Origin: Halomarina oriensis
Lineage (GTDB): Archaea; Halobacteriota; Halobacteria; Halobacteriales; Haloarculaceae
Assembly (NCBI RefSeq): GCF_009791395.1
Contig: NZ_WSZK01000015.1
Span: forward strand, 62,001-126,000
Length of the DNA stretch: 64,000 nucleotides
Direction: 5' to 3'
Below are positions 2,839 through 8,887 of this stretch, piece by piece. Under the pieces are notes generated by a model. That model was not told the DNA's origin. It saw only the letters and a program-made list of their open reading frames with translations, and did no database searches. Position numbers and translations under genes: made by a program. The stretch's first letter is position 1; the number at the start of each line of letters is the position of its first letter.

Positions 2839-3561
2839 GTGTCCGTCTCACTCACCCGGCGGTCGACCGACCGAGCACGCCGAACCGGCCTCGGCCTGTA
2901 CCACCGGGCGGCGTCGCTGAACTACGCCTACGGGGTGGCGACGACGAAACGCACCGTCGCCGGCCCGTATCGGAGCTACGAACCGTGGAACAGCCACGGC
3001 GACGACTCCGGACTGGCGGCGCTCGGGACGCTGCCCGACGACGCCGTCGTCGTCGACGCCGGCGCACACGTCGGCGAGTACGCCCTCCCGCTGGCGGCGG
3101 CCGGCCGAACCGTCCACGCGGTCGAACCCGACCCCGTCGCCGCCGAGCGCCTCCGGGCGAACCGGTCGGCGACCGGCGTCGAGTCGCGGGTGACGGTCCA
3201 CGACTGTGGCCTCGGTGACCGCGACGGGACGGCGACGTTCTACCGCTCGTCGGCCCCGAAAGGGTCGGCGTTCGACGAGACGGCGGCGACCCGGTGGGGG
3301 GCGCGGGTCGTCGAACGCGTCGACAGACGGGTCGCTCGCCTCGACACGCTGGTCGACGACCTCCCACCACCGGACGCACTGAAACTCGACGTCGAGGGTG
3401 CGGAACTCGCGGCACTCCGCGGGGCCGAACGGACGCTCCGCGAGCACCGACCGCTGGTCGTCGTCGAACCACACGGCACCGACCGCGAACTCCGCGCCGA
3501 ACTCGTCGCGTTCGGCTACGCCGTCGACCCGTACGGCGACTGCTGGGTGTGTCGGCCGTGA
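2839..3561 (+). CDS. FkbM family methyltransferase
   Basis: A SAM-dependent methyltransferase of the FkbM type, usually O-methylating sugars or polyketides; 240 residues from the chosen GTG. Motif I is VVVDAGAHVGEYALPLA (about residues 67-83), followed by VHAVEPDP. The FkbM signature LKLDVEGAELAALRGAE is near 180-196, and VVVEPH follows. The start is uncertain: GTG at 2827 and at 2839 are both in frame and no ATG is close; 2839 leaves a short basic N-terminus. It is the first gene of the operon and overlaps the next gene by GTGA. Confidence 0.85.
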   Translation: MSVSLTRRSTDRARRTGLGLYHRAASLNYAYGVATTKRTVAGPYRSYEPWNSHGDDSGLAALGTLPDDAVVVDAGAHVGEYALPLAAAGRTVHAVEPDPVAAERLRANRSATGVESRVTVHDCGLGDRDGTATFYRSSAPKGSAFDETAATRWGARVVERVDRRVARLDTLVDDLPPPDALKLDVEGAELAALRGAERTLREHRPLVVVEPHGTDRELRAELVAFGYAVDPYGDCWVCRP

Positions 3562-4367
3562 GCGAGGTCGACCGCCGGCCGTCGGTCCCCGACCGTGTCC
3601 GTCGAACGTGGCTGGCGTGGGTCGGGGTCGCACTCCTCGCGCTCGTGCTCGGGGCCACGCTCGTCGCCCAGCGGATGACGGACTCGACGGGCCTGTGGTG
3701 GGCGCTGCTCGCCGGCGTGGTCGCCGTCGCACTGCTCGCCTACGTCCGTCTCCTCCTCGACCGGAACCGACCGGTCGACGCCGGCGAGGGGAGCGCGCTG
3801 CCCCCCGCCCGCTACGCGACGTTCGGACTCGCCAACGCGCTGACGACGGGGCGAGGACTGCTCCTCGCGGTACTCGCGGGACTGTTCGCCGTCCCGAATC
3901 CCGGCTGGCTCCCGGCGCTCCTGTACGGAAGCGTCGTGCTCCTCGACGTTCTGGACGGTCCGGTCGCCCGTGCCCGCGACCGGACCTCCGTGCTCGGGAC
4001 GCGCCTCGACACGGCCGTCGACGCCGCCGGACTGCTCGTCGCGGGCGGCCTCGGTGTCGCGCTCGGGACGCTCCCCGTCTGGTTTCTCGCCGTCGGCGCG
4101 GCCCGGTACTGCTACGTCGCTGGACTGTGGTGGCGTCGTCGCCGCGGACTCCACGTCGGGACGCTCCCGCCGAGTCGCGTCCGGCGGCCGCTGGCGGCGC
4201 TCCAGATGGTCGTGACGGCGGCCGCGCTCGCTCCCGTCGTCGGCCCGCCCGTGACGACGCTCGTCGCCACCGTGGCGATGACGCCGTTCGTCGTCGGGTT
4301 CTCTCTGGACTACCGGGCCGTCACGAGTCGGGACGTTAAGCAGTCGGCGGCCCAACGGCCGGTATGA
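3558..4367 (+). CDS. CDP-alcohol phosphatidyltransferase family protein
   Basis: An integral membrane enzyme that transfers a phospho-alcohol group from a CDP-alcohol to an acceptor with release of CMP; 269 residues. The full catalytic signature D-G-x2-A-R-x8-G-x3-D-x3-D is present: DGPVARARDRTSVLGTRLD followed by TAVD. About six hydrophobic segments surround it, and the first two (residues 10-60) precede the catalytic core. The GTG start overlaps the FkbM stop as GTGA, and the stop overlaps the next ATG as ATGA, so it is translationally coupled on both sides. Its location beside a pterin synthase homologue and a glycosyltransferase is unusual for housekeeping phospholipid synthesis. Confidence 0.9.
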   Translation: MSEVDRRPSVPDRVRRTWLAWVGVALLALVLGATLVAQRMTDSTGLWWALLAGVVAVALLAYVRLLLDRNRPVDAGEGSALPPARYATFGLANALTTGRGLLLAVLAGLFAVPNPGWLPALLYGSVVLLDVLDGPVARARDRTSVLGTRLDTAVDAAGLLVAGGLGVALGTLPVWFLAVGAARYCYVAGLWWRRRRGLHVGTLPPSRVRRPLAALQMVVTAAALAPVVGPPVTTLVATVAMTPFVVGFSLDYRAVTSRDVKQSAAQRPV

Positions 4368-4774
4368 ACGTCGCCGCTCGCAGCGCCCTCTCGCTGCTCG
4401 CCCGTGCGGTGGTGGTAGTGGTCCTCGCCGGGCCGGCGGTGGGGAAGGTGCTGGACTACGGCGGGCAGGTCGCCTTCTTCGAGAGCCTCGGTCTGCCCGC
4501 TCCCGGCCTCCTCGTCGCCCTCTCGGCGGCCGTCGAACTCGCCGCGCTGGTCGGCGTCGGCCTCGGTGTCGCGGGCCGACTGCTCGCGGTACCGCTCGTC
4601 GTGAACATGCTCGTGGCCGTCGTCGCCGGCGCACCGAACCCCGCGAACCTCGCCGTGCTGGCGGGGGCGCTCGTCGTCCTCGCACTGGGGACGGGGCCGT
4701 ACTCGCTGTGGTCGCCCGCCGTCGAGCGGCGGATGCCGTCGCCGGGGACCGACTCCGACCGAGGTGGTCGATGA
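4364..4774 (+). CDS. DoxX-like four-helix membrane protein
   Basis: A 136-residue protein with four predicted membrane helices and short loops. The first helix contains AGPAVGKVLDY and the second AAVELAALVGVGLGVAGRL, which matches the DoxX/MauE-like pattern of small redox-associated membrane proteins. No Cys pair is visible. It overlaps both neighbours by ATGA. What it does here is unknown; it could be a membrane partner of the dehydrogenase encoded directly downstream. Confidence 0.7.
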   Translation: MNVAARSALSLLARAVVVVVLAGPAVGKVLDYGGQVAFFESLGLPAPGLLVALSAAVELAALVGVGLGVAGRLLAVPLVVNMLVAVVAGAPNPANLAVLAGALVVLALGTGPYSLWSPAVERRMPSPGTDSDRGGR

Positions 4775-5766
4775 GTCGTCGCGTCCGCTTCGTCGCCCCG
4801 TCCGAGGTTCGGGTCGAGGACCGCCCGACACCGACGCCCGACACCGGCGAGGTGCTGGTCCGCGCCGCGGTGTCGGCGGTCAGTCCCGGCACCGAACTGC
4901 TCGTCTACCGCGGGACCGTTCCGACCGAGGACGGCGAGACGCTGGGCGCGCTCGACGGGGACCGCTCGTACCCGCTGTCGTACGGCTACGCCACCGTCGG
5001 CCGCGTCGAGGCCGTCGGCGACGGCGTCGACTCGAAGTGGCTCGACCGTCGGGTGTTCGCCTACGCCCCCCACGGCGAGCACGTCGTTGCCCCCGTCGAC
5101 GACGTGGTACCCGTCCCCGAGGACGTGCCGAGCGACGAGGCGGCCCTCCTCGCCAGTGTAGAGACGGCGCTCACGTTCGCGCTCGACGCCACACCCCGTG
5201 TCGGCGAGCGCATCGTCGTGTTCGGACAGGGGGTCGTCGGCCTCCTGACGACCGGCCTCCTCGCAGAGACGGCACTGACGACGGTGGTCGCCGCCGACTG
5301 CTACGGGCAGCGCCGGGCGCTCGCGGAGCGCTTCGGCGCGAGCGAGACCGTCGAGGCACCCGTCGACGGGACGCTCGCCGAGCGGTTCCCCGAGGGGGTG
5401 GACCTCGCCGTCGAGGTGAGCGGCGACCCCGACGCGCTGGACGAGGCCATCGACGCGACGGGCTACGGCGGACGTGTCCTCGTCGGGTCGTGGTACGGCA
5501 CCAAGCGCGCGAACCTCGCGCTCGGCGGGTCGTTCCACCGCGACCGCATCGAGATACGGAGCAGCCAGGTCAGCACCATCGCCCCCGACCTGCGTGGGCG
5601 CTGGGACCGCGAACGACGCTGGAGTGCCGCGTGGGACGCGATTCGGAGCCTCCCCGTCGACCGCCTGCTCACCCACCGAATCCCCGTCTCGGACGCACCG
5701 CGGGCGTACCGCCTGCTCGACGAGCGCCCCGAGGAGGCGGTCGGCGTACTCCTGACTCACGACTGA
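4771..5766 (+). CDS. MDR-family dehydrogenase without catalytic zinc ligands
   Basis: A medium-chain dehydrogenase/reductase of 331 residues. The nucleotide-binding motif VFGQGVVGLLTTGLLAE (about 152-168) is intact. The zinc-ligand Cys and His-Glu of classical alcohol dehydrogenases are absent: the sequence reads AVSPGTELLVYRG where CGxCxxD is expected and YGYATVG where GHE is expected. The structural Cys cluster is also missing. This resembles the BchC-like subgroup, which has a similar SxGTE motif. The start at ATG 4771 overlaps the previous stop as ATGA. The probable role is oxidation or reduction of a pathway intermediate made by the operon. Confidence 0.85.
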   Translation: MSRRVRFVAPSEVRVEDRPTPTPDTGEVLVRAAVSAVSPGTELLVYRGTVPTEDGETLGALDGDRSYPLSYGYATVGRVEAVGDGVDSKWLDRRVFAYAPHGEHVVAPVDDVVPVPEDVPSDEAALLASVETALTFALDATPRVGERIVVFGQGVVGLLTTGLLAETALTTVVAADCYGQRRALAERFGASETVEAPVDGTLAERFPEGVDLAVEVSGDPDALDEAIDATGYGGRVLVGSWYGTKRANLALGGSFHRDRIEIRSSQVSTIAPDLRGRWDRERRWSAAWDAIRSLPVDRLLTHRIPVSDAPRAYRLLDERPEEAVGVLLTHD

Positions 5767-5861
5767 GCCGCGAGCATCGACGAGTCGCCGGTCGACGATC
5801 CGGACGGCGACTGTCGGGTCGACGACTGGGGGTTGATACCGCGAGCGACGTAACGAGCGGT

Positions 5862-6284
5862 ATGTACACGGTCACGGTGACGGAAGCGTTCGTCGCCCAG
5901 CACGTCCTGACGGTCCCCGACCCCGGCCCCGAGGGTGACCTGCACGCCCACCAGTTCACGGCCCACGCCGAGTTCCGCGGGCCCACGCTCGGCGAGCACG
6001 ACTACCTGCTCGACATCGACGACGCGCGAGCGGCGCTGGCGGCCGTCGCCGACGACTACCGCGACACGACGCTCAACGACCGCGCGGGGTTCCTCGACCG
6101 CAACCCGAGCGTCGAACTGCTCGCACGACGGGTCCACGAGGCGCTGGTCGAAGCTCTCGACGCCCCTGGCGTCGAGGAACTGGTCGTCACCGTCGAGGAG
6201 GACGACGTGGCGAGCGTCGCCTACCACGCCCCCTTCGGCGACGGTAGACCAGAGGACGACGCGACGGAGCGCCGGACGGACTGA
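5862..6284 (+). CDS. 6-pyruvoyl/6-carboxy-tetrahydropterin synthase homologue with altered active site
   Basis: A T-fold pterin enzyme of the QueD/PTPS superfamily, 140 residues. The zinc site is recognisable: H14 in FVAQH, then H28 and H30 in LHAH. The catalytic Cys expected four residues before the HxH (C-x3-HGH in QueD) is replaced by Glu24 (E-G-D-L-H-A-H). The Asp-His pair before LND is not conserved (YRDTTLND). The C-terminal Glu before AYHAPF is kept. A Glu in this position is reported for the PTPS-III group that replaces dihydroneopterin aldolase, so ordinary queuosine or biopterin activity is unlikely. It follows a 95-bp gap and is coupled to the next gene by TGATG. Confidence 0.85.
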   Translation: MYTVTVTEAFVAQHVLTVPDPGPEGDLHAHQFTAHAEFRGPTLGEHDYLLDIDDARAALAAVADDYRDTTLNDRAGFLDRNPSVELLARRVHEALVEALDAPGVEELVVTVEEDDVASVAYHAPFGDGRPEDDATERRTD

Positions 6285-7375
6285 TGCACGTCGGTCTCGT
6301 CGTTCCGGGGTCGCTCGACACCGTCTCGGGGGGGTACTGCTACGACCGGCGACTCGTCTCGCACCTCCACGAGGCGGGTGACCGCGTCACCGTCGTCTCG
6401 CTGCCGACCGGCGGCTACCGGCGTCGCGTCGTCGACTCCCTCCGTCCACGCCTCCGCCGGGCGCTCGCCCGCCCGTTCGACGTCCTCGTCGAGGACGAAC
6501 TCGCCCACCCGTCGCTGGTCGGCGTCGCGCCGGACGTCCCACGCGTCGCCCTCGTCCACCTCCTGCGAGGGGCCGACCCGAGCGACCCGCACCGCCGGAG
6601 CGCCCGCCTGCTCGAACGCCGGTATCTCGGCCACGTGGACCACGTCGTGGCGACGAGCGACGCGACACGGCGAGCCGTCACCGACCTCGCGGACCGACCG
6701 ACGAGCGTCGTTCCGCCCGCTGGCGACCGCTTCGCACCGACCAGCGTCGACGCGGCGGCGATTCGGCGACGTGCTCACGAGGGTCCGCTGCGGGTCGCCA
6801 CGCTCGGTAGCGTCGTCCCACGGAAGGGACTGGACACGCTCGTCGCCGCACTGGCCCGTCTCGACACCGACTGGCGACTCACCGCGATGGGAGACACGAC
6901 GGGCGACCCCGCGTTCGTCCGCGCGGTGCGACAATCGGCCGCTCGGCGGGGCGTCTCCGACCGAGTGACGCTGACGGGTCGAGTCGAGGACGGGACCGTC
7001 GCCGGCCACCTGCGGCGCGCGCACGTCTTCGCACTCCCCTCGCGCTACGAACCGTTCGGCATCGCCGCGCTGGAGGCGATGGGGTTCGGTCTCCCCGCTC
7101 TCGCTACCACCGCCGGCGGCCCACCGGAGTTCGTCACCGACGGCGCGGACGGCTTCCTCGTCGACCCGGACGACCCGGAGTCGCTCGCCGCCCGCCTCGA
7201 CACGCTGGCGACCGACCGCGAGCGACTGGCGCGGATGGGCGTCGTCGCCCGCGGGACGTTCGAGACCGCGCCGTCGTGGGACGACCGGATGGCGACGTTC
7301 CGGACGGTGCTCGAACGGGTCGCGGCCGGGGACACACCGCCACGCGACCGACCGGCCGAAGAGGTGTCGCCGTGA
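6284..7375 (+). CDS. Glycosyltransferase family 4
   Basis: A retaining GT-B glycosyltransferase, 363 residues, cytosolic. The N-terminal acceptor-domain motif VSGGYCYDRRLV is near residue 15. The C-terminal nucleotide-sugar domain has GSVVPRKGLDTLV (about 190) and the family EX7E motif in YEPFGIAALEAMGFGLP. The ATG overlaps the stop of the pterin enzyme as TGATG, and its own stop overlaps the next gene as GTGA. The sugar and acceptor are unknown; the tight coupling makes a pterin or a membrane-bound carrier a reasonable acceptor guess. A G7 run near 6328 is in frame here. Confidence 0.9.
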   Translation: MHVGLVVPGSLDTVSGGYCYDRRLVSHLHEAGDRVTVVSLPTGGYRRRVVDSLRPRLRRALARPFDVLVEDELAHPSLVGVAPDVPRVALVHLLRGADPSDPHRRSARLLERRYLGHVDHVVATSDATRRAVTDLADRPTSVVPPAGDRFAPTSVDAAAIRRRAHEGPLRVATLGSVVPRKGLDTLVAALARLDTDWRLTAMGDTTGDPAFVRAVRQSAARRGVSDRVTLTGRVEDGTVAGHLRRAHVFALPSRYEPFGIAALEAMGFGLPALATTAGGPPEFVTDGADGFLVDPDDPESLAARLDTLATDRERLARMGVVARGTFETAPSWDDRMATFRTVLERVAAGDTPPRDRPAEEVSP

Positions 7376-8187
7376 CCGCCGGCGGGCCTCCCGTCGGCTA
7401 CCTGCTCGCCAAACGCGGCGTCGACGACCGGGCTATCGACCGGGCCACCCTCGAACGGTTCGTCGACGGCCTCCCGGCCGAACCGCGACTGCTCGACGTG
7501 GGCGGCGGCGTCGGGACGATGCTCGACCGCCTGCAGGAGTGGGACCTGGTGCCCGCAGGGACGCGCTACACGCTCCTCGACGCGGACGCCGCCCTCGTGG
7601 CGACGGCCCGCGAACGACTCGCCGACGTGCCCGTCGAGACGACGTTCGTCGCGGACGACCTGCTCGCGTTCGCGGACGGGACGGACCGACGGTACGACGC
7701 CTGTGTCGCCGCCGCCGTCCTGGACCTGCTCGACGGCGACCGGGCGCTGGACGCGCTGGCGACGCTCGCCCCTGGTGGCCTGCTCTACGCGCCGGTGACG
7801 TTCGACGGTGTCACGCTGTTCTCGCCGCCACGGCCCGACGACGAGCGAGTCCTCGGCTGGTACCACGACCACATGACCGCCCGCGACGGGTCGCCGGCGG
7901 GGGGCCGCCGACTGCTGGCCGCCCTCTCCCGGTCGGACTGCGACACGCTGGCCGTCGCGCCGAGCGACTGGCACGTCCACCCACCGTACCACGAGGGTGA
8001 GACACGGTTCCTCGCCGCCATCCTCGACACCGTCGAGGAGGCGCTGACGGGGTTCGACCCCGTCGAGAACGGGGTACTGAGCGCGTGGCTCACCGCCCGC
8101 CGCGACACGCTGGCGGCAGGTGAGTTGGCCTACGTCGCACACAACCTCGACGTGCTCGTGAGGCTGTCGGCACCACTCGAACACTGA
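7372..8187 (+). CDS. Class I SAM-dependent methyltransferase
   Basis: A 271-residue Rossmann-fold methyltransferase starting at GTG 7372 (overlap GTGA). Motif I is LLDVGGGVGTMLDRL (about 41-55), followed by YTLLDADAALVATARERL and a motif IV-like YDACVAAAVLDLL. The centre resembles methyltransferases acting on small molecules or lipids rather than RNA. It closes the operon that begins at 2839, and the next gene has its own upstream region. The N-terminal residues before GTG are open but not conserved in character. Confidence 0.85.
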   Translation: MTAGGPPVGYLLAKRGVDDRAIDRATLERFVDGLPAEPRLLDVGGGVGTMLDRLQEWDLVPAGTRYTLLDADAALVATARERLADVPVETTFVADDLLAFADGTDRRYDACVAAAVLDLLDGDRALDALATLAPGGLLYAPVTFDGVTLFSPPRPDDERVLGWYHDHMTARDGSPAGGRRLLAALSRSDCDTLAVAPSDWHVHPPYHEGETRFLAAILDTVEEALTGFDPVENGVLSAWLTARRDTLAAGELAYVAHNLDVLVRLSAPLEH

Positions 8188-8257: not shown

Positions 8258-8887
8258 ATGACCCTCTTCCCTCACTCCGTCGAAACCGAACGGCTCAGAC
8301 TCGAACGGCTGACGAGCGACGACCTGTGGGACCTGTACGACCACGCTCGGACCGACGCGCCGGGCATCGACGAGGTGACGCGACACCTGACGTGGGACCC
8401 CCACGAGACGCCGAAGGTGACCCGCGACTTCGTCACGATGGTCGAGTCGCAGTGGGCCGAGGGCGAGGTGGCGACGTACGTCGTCCGACCGCGCGACGGG
8501 GAGGCGAACGCGGGCGAGTTCGGCGGTGCGACGGGTCTCACGGTCGACTGGGAGCGCCGTCTCGGTACGCTCGGTCTCTGGCTCAAACCGCCGCTGTGGG
8601 GTCGTGGCTACTCCGGCGAACGGGCGGGTGCGCTGCTCGCGCTGGCGTTCGACCGTCTCGACCTGGACGTCGTCGCGGTGACCCACGACCCCGCGAACGA
8701 CGCCTCGCGCCGGGCCATCGAGAAGTACGTCGACCGCTTCGGCGGCCGACGCGAGGGCACGTTCCGCCACGCCGCCGTCGGGCACGGCGGGGGCGTCCTC
8801 GACCACGTCCGCTACTCCGTCGCCCGCGAGGAGTGGCGTGCGGCCGTCGGCGAGGACCACGGCGTCCGGTTCGGCGTGGAGTCGTAA
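8258..8887 (+). CDS. GNAT family N-acetyltransferase (RimJ-like)
   Basis: A 209-residue acetyl-CoA-dependent acetyltransferase. The start VETERLRLERLTSDDL is typical of RimJ/RimL-type members, which acetylate ribosomal or other protein N-termini. The acetyl-CoA binding loop is WGRGYSGERAGALLALAF and is followed by the beta-strand region DVVAVTHDPANDASRRAIEK. The gene stands alone with a 70-bp upstream region that contains CTTTTTC. The acceptor is not predictable. Confidence 0.85.
   Translation: MTLFPHSVETERLRLERLTSDDLWDLYDHARTDAPGIDEVTRHLTWDPHETPKVTRDFVTMVESQWAEGEVATYVVRPRDGEANAGEFGGATGLTVDWERRLGTLGLWLKPPLWGRGYSGERAGALLALAFDRLDLDVVAVTHDPANDASRRAIEKYVDRFGGRREGTFRHAAVGHGGGVLDHVRYSVAREEWRAAVGEDHGVRFGVES

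Follow-up and report, generated by a model that had tools for sequence, protein, structure and literature searches.

Seven genes on the forward strand of a 64,000-nucleotide stretch of the haloarchaeon Halomarina oriensis (RefSeq assembly GCF_009791395.1, contig NZ_WSZK01000015.1, positions 62,001 to 126,000; the whole stretch is referred to as the window) form an operon which, with a probability of about 60%, constitutes a branch in which precursors of riboflavin are turned into a modified compound, probably linked to the membrane. The operon is real and conserved and not a local accident. Its recurring unit comprises five genes, encoding a CDP-alcohol phosphotransferase, a BchC-like dehydrogenase, a T-fold protein related to 6-pyruvoyl-tetrahydropterin synthase (PTPS), a GT4 glycosyltransferase and a class I methyltransferase; the remaining two, for an FkbM-family methyltransferase and a DoxX-like membrane protein, are optional, since they are missing from most relatives (FkbM was found at 3 and DoxX at none of 80 haloarchaeal loci). 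In relatives the unit is linked to genes for GTP cyclohydrolases and reductases of the riboflavin type, and the active site of its PTPS-like protein differs from that of the known synthases.

The presence of the operon in about 60% of the sampled Halobacteria and in several bacterial phyla would make its product a common cell component, and, if membrane-attached, this product would represent a lipid or cofactor of a new class. The original prediction, made from the sequence of the window, had proposed an undescribed pathway entered by a pterin. The pathway is indeed conserved and apparently undescribed; its neighbours in other genomes, GTP cyclohydrolases II or III and a RibD-type reductase, speak against the pterin entry point. 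Neither the full operon nor its archaeal form, the exchange of cyclohydrolases or the fusion of the phosphotransferase with DoxX was found described in the open-access literature; what is known is that PF00925 (GTP cyclohydrolase) and RibD_C (PF01872) domains are encoded next to PTPS-IV genes (PMC5445326).

Conservation of the cluster and its riboflavin-type neighbours

A match to the PTPS-like protein was present in 116 of the 194 sampled Halobacteria genomes, and neighbourhoods were counted at 80 loci drawn from these 116. The best tblastn matches close to the PTPS-like gene corresponded to the dehydrogenase (69 loci), the methyltransferase (63), the glycosyltransferase (56) and the CDP-alcohol phosphotransferase (53). 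On the same strand, the dehydrogenase gene directly preceded the PTPS-like gene at 55 loci, the PTPS-like gene preceded that of the glycosyltransferase at 51 and the latter preceded the methyltransferase gene at 40, the genes at the last two junctions mostly overlapping or being very closely spaced; where the glycosyltransferase gene is located elsewhere, the PTPS-like and methyltransferase genes usually overlap or touch each other. The spacing between the dehydrogenase and PTPS-like genes varies from an overlap up to about 400 bases and is mostly below 160. Both genes were found in 27 of 42 sampled Halobacteria and neither in the other 15 (Fisher p ~1e-11, uncorrected for kinship). Haloferax is among the genera in which the two genes occur together (L142, L163). 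A small membrane protein, DUF7475, is encoded at about 50 of the 80 loci. The genes flanking the cluster vary between haloarchaeal genomes, therefore conservation concerns the cluster as a unit and does not extend to a larger region around it. A gene-neighbourhood search had been suggested as one way to check the original prediction; it revealed the core order across Halobacteria and all seven window genes, in identical order, in a metagenome-derived haloarchaeon (L113).

A scan of species genomes with the dehydrogenase alignment placed twelve bacterial loci among the best 80. Counterparts are present in Chloroflexota, Methylomonas, Methylosinus, Thiodictyon, a rhizobium, a rhodobacterium and a deltaproteobacterium, and those of Methylosinus trichosporium OB3b, Candidatus Thiodictyon syntrophicum, Rhodobacteraceae SC52 and Allorhizobium are found in plasmid records. 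Beside the dehydrogenase, PTPS-like, glycosyltransferase and methyltransferase genes, 16 bacterial loci encode a RibD-type reductase (15/16) and GTP cyclohydrolase II, RibA (11/16). The order in a member of Anaerolineae (L145) is CDP-alcohol phosphotransferase, LPG_synthase_TM protein, DUF7475, GTP cyclohydrolase II, RibD_C reductase, dehydrogenase, PTPS-like protein, glycosyltransferase and methyltransferase; a non-haloarchaeal archaeon of the same phylum as the window (L199) has methyltransferase, GTP cyclohydrolase II, dehydrogenase, PTPS-like and glycosyltransferase genes; and a minimal cluster (L198) consists of dehydrogenase, PTPS-like, methyltransferase and RibD genes. In the dehydrogenase tree haloarchaea form one weakly supported group (82/21) beside that of Chloroflexota, Methylomonas and the deltaproteobacterium, and the proteobacterial plasmid set, mostly with PTPS proteins bearing an FGPAQ signature, is distant. 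In an incomplete and possibly misbinned genome bin (L202:1990-3723), GTP cyclohydrolase II and a dehydrogenase of the window type (SWYG signature) share a single frame of 577 codons, either a fusion or an assembly artefact.

In haloarchaea, the family with the tightest placement ahead of the dehydrogenase gene is GTP cyclohydrolase III (ArfA; PF05165, E 4e-88), encoded at 23 of the 80 loci versus about 0.6 expected; at 17 loci it directly precedes the dehydrogenase gene on the same strand, with gaps of -8 to 31 bases. GTP cyclohydrolases II and III are unrelated, and both yield ring-opened pyrimidines of the riboflavin type; the ArfA product retains the formyl group, which is taken off by ArfB. 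The solved structures matched by the RibD protein of the bacterial loci are those of 2,5-diamino-6-ribosylaminopyrimidinone-phosphate reductases and of RibD (best E 1.5e-32). Because RibA and ArfA replace each other at the same operon position, and because the solved relatives of the RibD-type reductase act on this pyrimidine, the precursor is most likely 2,5-diamino-6-ribosyl/ribitylamino-pyrimidinone phosphate and not the dihydroneopterin triphosphate of the standard PTPS pathways. The linked arfA is a second genomic copy in 11 genomes and the sole copy in 12; duplication with one copy residing in the cluster argues for a branch apart from vitamin synthesis. A Haloferax arfA deletion is on record (PMC8305020, citing Phillips 2012; COG0720).

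Creatininase, a candidate for ArfB, was rejected as a cluster member, being too rare: it is encoded near 2 of the 80 haloarchaeal loci (L056, L112), in Haloarcula (L193) and in the archaeon L199. Four creatininase-family matches exist in the window genome, all outside the operon.

Proposed pathway and its alternatives

The alignment of 75 haloarchaeal PTPS-like sequences revealed that the three zinc-binding histidines are kept in 75, 74 and 75 of them and the pterin/guanine-binding glutamate in all, and that the catalytic cysteine is replaced by glutamate in 74 and the catalytic histidine by aspartate in 73. With the metal ligands and the glutamate retained and the catalytic pair replaced, the protein should still bind zinc and a 2-amino-4-oxo-pyrimidine ring, and the known PTPS reactions are not expected of it. 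Two PTPS-like matches (G154:C7:104289-104662 and G038:C1:179624-180006) are split across frames and appear to be decaying copies or sequencing errors.

For the dehydrogenase the bchC model is the best or near-best NCBIfam match, aligned over nearly the full length (62 bits vs a curated cut-off of 291), and CGxD, the zinc-ligand motif of zinc alcohol dehydrogenases, is absent from the protein. The oxidation catalysed by BchC, that of a secondary alcohol next to a ring system, offers a plausible analogy. Solved relatives of the glycosyltransferase (PDB matches) include MshA-type enzymes of mycothiol synthesis, PimA/PimB-type enzymes and UDP-glucose:tetrahydrobiopterin glucosyltransferase. The class I methyltransferase has an N-terminal K..VDDRA motif and aligns with its bacterial counterparts; its structural model (predicted local distance difference test, pLDDT, 94) gave generic methyltransferases only in a fold search, with no clear hint of the substrate.

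The CDP-alcohol phosphotransferase motif DxxDGxxARx8GxxxDxxxD (DVLDGPVARARDRTSVLGTRLDTAVD) is intact in 52/52 family sequences, the window protein included. In Chloroflexota (L145) and Methylomonas (L187) the phosphotransferase has a fused C-terminal domain, which the window DoxX protein matches (BLASTP E 1e-6 with L145, hhalign probability 96); a Pfam search of the bacterial C-termini gave no DoxX, and it was the pairwise and profile comparisons that matched. The window DoxX is thus apparently the counterpart of this domain, which would explain why its gene directly follows that of the phosphotransferase; the L113 protein encoded at the same position is 49% identical. The original prediction had counted both proteins in a biosynthetic kit; the phosphotransferase belongs there, and DoxX, by its match to the fused domain, seemingly does too. 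Since the flippase-like LPG_synthase_TM protein is encoded in some of the bacterial operons and membrane proteins are encoded in both domains of life, a membrane-attached product is plausible.

We infer every individual reaction, as well as the product, and propose that the operon provides the later steps of a pathway diverting early riboflavin intermediates to a compound that carries a sugar and a methyl group and is probably attached to the membrane. The ring of GTP would be opened by GTP cyclohydrolase III (ArfA), replaced in bacteria by GTP cyclohydrolase II, whereupon an ArfC/RibD-type reductase would convert the ribosylamino group to ribitylamino (C1' to CH2). For these two steps the window genome would rely on an arfA (G000:C24) and a RibD_C/ArfC-type gene (G000:C4), each present once and unlinked to the operon. 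The BchC-like dehydrogenase would then oxidise a secondary alcohol in the polyol chain, yielding a keto intermediate as the substrate of the PTPS-like zinc T-fold enzyme. One route might begin with oxidation at C2', after which ring closure involving the 5-amino group would give a 7,8-dihydropterin with a neopterin-like chain (dihydroneopterin-phosphate-like): reduction and C2' oxidation would create the same 1-deoxy-2-keto chain as the Amadori rearrangement of GTP cyclohydrolase I, and a zinc T-fold enzyme would be a natural catalyst for the ring closure. This explicit route is tentative and on balance unlikely. Glycosylation would be due to the glycosyltransferase and methylation to the methyltransferase(s), and the CDP-alcohol phosphotransferase together with DoxX might couple the product by way of a phosphodiester, probably to a membrane alcohol such as archaeol. 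Slightly more doubtful still is the boldest version of the scheme, in which two domains share a pathway that turns riboflavin precursors into a glycosylated pteridine with a lipid anchor, possibly a DoxX-linked membrane redox cofactor, the ring of which would arise by reduction, oxidation and T-fold closure and not by GTP cyclohydrolase I chemistry.

Several points weigh against the branch from riboflavin precursors. No GTP cyclohydrolase gene is linked to the operon in the window or at most haloarchaeal loci, and no RibD-type gene detectable with the bacterial query is linked at the haloarchaeal ones, so that the entry point is deduced from relatives. Chemical reasoning alone underlies the sequence of the steps and the oxidation at C2', and as dihydropterins are already made by MptA/FolE2, it would have to be explained why cells form the same ring by another route. 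The glycosyltransferase is missing from L198 and there is no nearby CDP-alcohol phosphotransferase in L196 and L198 (Alphaproteobacteria), therefore glycosylation and lipid attachment would be optional or lineage-specific.

The linked cyclohydrolases and reductases of the riboflavin type, along with the loss of the standard catalytic residues from the PTPS-like group, would also suit a flavin- or lumazine-like product retaining the ribityl chain (for example a 2-amino lumazine analogue or a side branch of F420/flavin synthesis), the pyrimidine itself being the substrate of the PTPS-like protein. A role of PTPS-IV in F420 synthesis has been mentioned as unpublished, that of PTPS-V being unclear (PMC5041015); however, F420 as the sole role is ruled out by distribution (CofG in 194/194 Halobacteria vs the PTPS-like gene in 116/194), and neither lumazine nor riboflavin synthase was seen among those recurrent neighbours that were identified. 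The odds are against such a product, which we nevertheless consider a serious possibility.

Modification, glycosylation and lipid attachment of a ready-made dihydroneopterin-type pterin (from MptA/FolE2), in the manner of phosphohalopterins, would account for the pterin-binding glutamate kept in all 75 haloarchaeal sequences and for the kinship of the glycosyltransferase with the tetrahydrobiopterin enzyme. The recurrent neighbours identified are nonetheless GTP cyclohydrolase II/III and RibD and not GTP cyclohydrolase I, FolE2 or MptA, and the cysteine and histidine needed for reactions of dihydroneopterin triphosphate are replaced; the ready-made dihydropterin assumed by the original prediction is on these grounds an improbable precursor. 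For a link with phosphohalopterins in particular, the sequence gives no indication in either direction. GT4, CDP-alcohol phosphotransferase, LPG_synthase_TM and FkbM genes, all represented at these loci, are common in glycan clusters, but a surface-glycan or glycolipid cluster with unrelated housekeeping PTPS-like and dehydrogenase genes is very improbable, as these two are the most constant pair, the glycosyltransferase or methyltransferase gene overlaps or touches the PTPS-like gene at most loci, and the minimal L198 cluster drops the glycosyltransferase and keeps dehydrogenase, PTPS-like, methyltransferase and RibD genes.

Organisation of the operon in the window

The seven genes of the original prediction, with their coordinates, overlaps and the lone gap, were reproduced exactly on re-checking, and profile searches against Pfam and NCBIfam upheld each of the seven family assignments (Table 1). 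The genes overlap by GTGA (3558-3561), ATGA (4364-4367 and 4771-4774), TGATG (6282-6286) and GTGA (7372-7375). The start of the FkbM gene is uncertain; GTG at 2839 is favoured because the alignment with the L113 homologue begins at residue 4. Apart from L113, FkbM genes were noted in L132, L079, L100 and L112, and one also adjoins the CDP-alcohol phosphotransferase gene of Allorhizobium (L197). None of the seven proteins scored above the cut-off of an NCBIfam equivalog model, only the broad FkbM domain model being passed, therefore existing curation supplies no precise gene name.

Table 1 Genes and intergenic gap of the window operon
Feature	Position	Strand	Family evidence	Remarks
FkbM-family methyltransferase	2839..3561	+	Pfam PF05050 E 2e-19; TIGR01444 above cut-off	accessory
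CDP-alcohol phosphatidyltransferase (phosphotransferase in the text)	3558..4367	+	Pfam PF01066 (CDP-OH_P_transf) E 7e-16	core member
DoxX-like membrane protein	4364..4774	+	Pfam DoxX E 1e-10	
Medium-chain dehydrogenase/reductase (MDR) family dehydrogenase, BchC-like	4771..5766	+	Pfam PF00107 (ADH_zinc_N) E 3e-11	core member; signature SWYG
95-base gap	5767..5861	+		between dehydrogenase and PTPS-like genes; sole untranslated stretch within the operon
PTPS-like T-fold protein	5862..6284	+	Pfam PF01242 E 5e-21	core member
GT4 glycosyltransferase	6284..7375	+	Pfam PF00534 E 2e-34	core member
Class I S-adenosylmethionine (SAM)-dependent methyltransferase	7372..8187	+	Pfam PF08242/PF13649, 1e-7	core member; unnamed family

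A sigma-70 promoter scan gave no match, this model not being applicable to archaea. Upstream lies a divergent gene for the large subunit of replication factor C, listed as 1269-2855, whose reading frame runs about 48 codons past the likely start (MADWTE), so that the true start is probably near 2711. About 70 bases downstream of the operon there is a GNAT acetyltransferase gene (8258-8887); no such gene was found next to the cluster in relatives. A Gfo/Idh/MocA oxidoreductase, joined to an aldo/keto reductase in L033, is encoded near the cluster at 22 of the 80 haloarchaeal loci (L033, L045, L054 and others), and some of these loci also have genes for a PAP2 phosphatase or small membrane proteins.

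Comparison with known systems

The proposed pathway resembles early riboflavin synthesis in that the same families (RibA or ArfA, RibD or ArfC) provide the first two steps in linked clusters, and differs from it in that the later riboflavin enzymes were not seen among the recurrent neighbours. The CDP-alcohol phosphotransferase scores 28 bits with the archaetidylinositol-phosphate synthase model vs a curated NCBIfam cut-off of 180 and carries only the general motif of the CDP-alcohol phosphotransferases. UDP-glucose:tetrahydrobiopterin glucosyltransferase is a GT4 enzyme acting on a pterin and a sequence relative of the operon glycosyltransferase (E 3e-11), but MshA-type and PimB-type enzymes outscore it, and the PTPS-like protein does not carry the PTPS-II motif.

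With QueD and PTPS-I, -II and -III the window protein has in common the T-fold, the zinc histidines and the pterin-binding glutamate. The QueD/PTPS-I motif CxxxHGH (PMC5041015) is present in 0/75 haloarchaeal sequences, the window protein having ExxxHAH, and the score with the QueD model is 29 bits vs a curated cut-off of 89. The PTPS-II (biopterin) motif CxxxxxHGH does not occur either, the glycine being serine, aspartate or alanine in 75/75 and cysteine being absent from the catalytic column; the PTPS-III (folate) motif ExxHGH was found in 0/75, the spacing being ExxxH and the glycine serine or alanine in nearly all. Roles in queuosine/archaeosine, biopterin and folate synthesis are disfavoured by these motifs together with a separate QueD-type gene in the genome. 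This second PTPS-family gene (L001, G000:C1:45307-45672) has CxxxHGH and probably serves the archaeosine pathway. The view of the operon as a conserved biosynthetic kit distinct from queuosine, biopterin, folate or ordinary phospholipid synthesis is borne out, and its gene order recurs in relatives. Public records, through automatic annotation, call the bacterial members 6-carboxytetrahydropterin synthase and assign them to queuosine synthesis.

The closest relative of solved structure is SCO6650 of Streptomyces coelicolor (PDB 3d7j), both by sequence (E 5e-6) and by comparison of the AlphaFold model (pLDDT 91; E 1.5e-11, QueD being next). SCO6650 is reportedly devoid of zinc, of the catalytic triad and of PTPS activity. 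FGPAQ, the signature of PTPS-IV (PMC5445326), is present in 0/75 haloarchaeal sequences, and the neighbourhood of GTP cyclohydrolase II and RibD_C is absent from the window and from haloarchaea (no RibA or RibD match) and present in bacterial members carrying the window-type PTPS; the PF00925 domain is labelled GTP cyclohydrolase I in that paper, but GTP cyclohydrolase II in Pfam. The window group is characterized by GPE(G/N)xxH(S/A)H, whereas SCO6650 and PTPS-IV have FGPAQxxHGAT: the glutamate of the former corresponds to alanine in the latter, and the third zinc histidine is kept in the window group and lost in the FGPAQ group. The FGPAQ-type PTPS genes of Thiodictyon, Allorhizobium and Rhodobacteraceae nevertheless lie in the same operon context, by which an orphan group of the PTPS family, one member having had a crystal structure since 2008, gains a pathway context.

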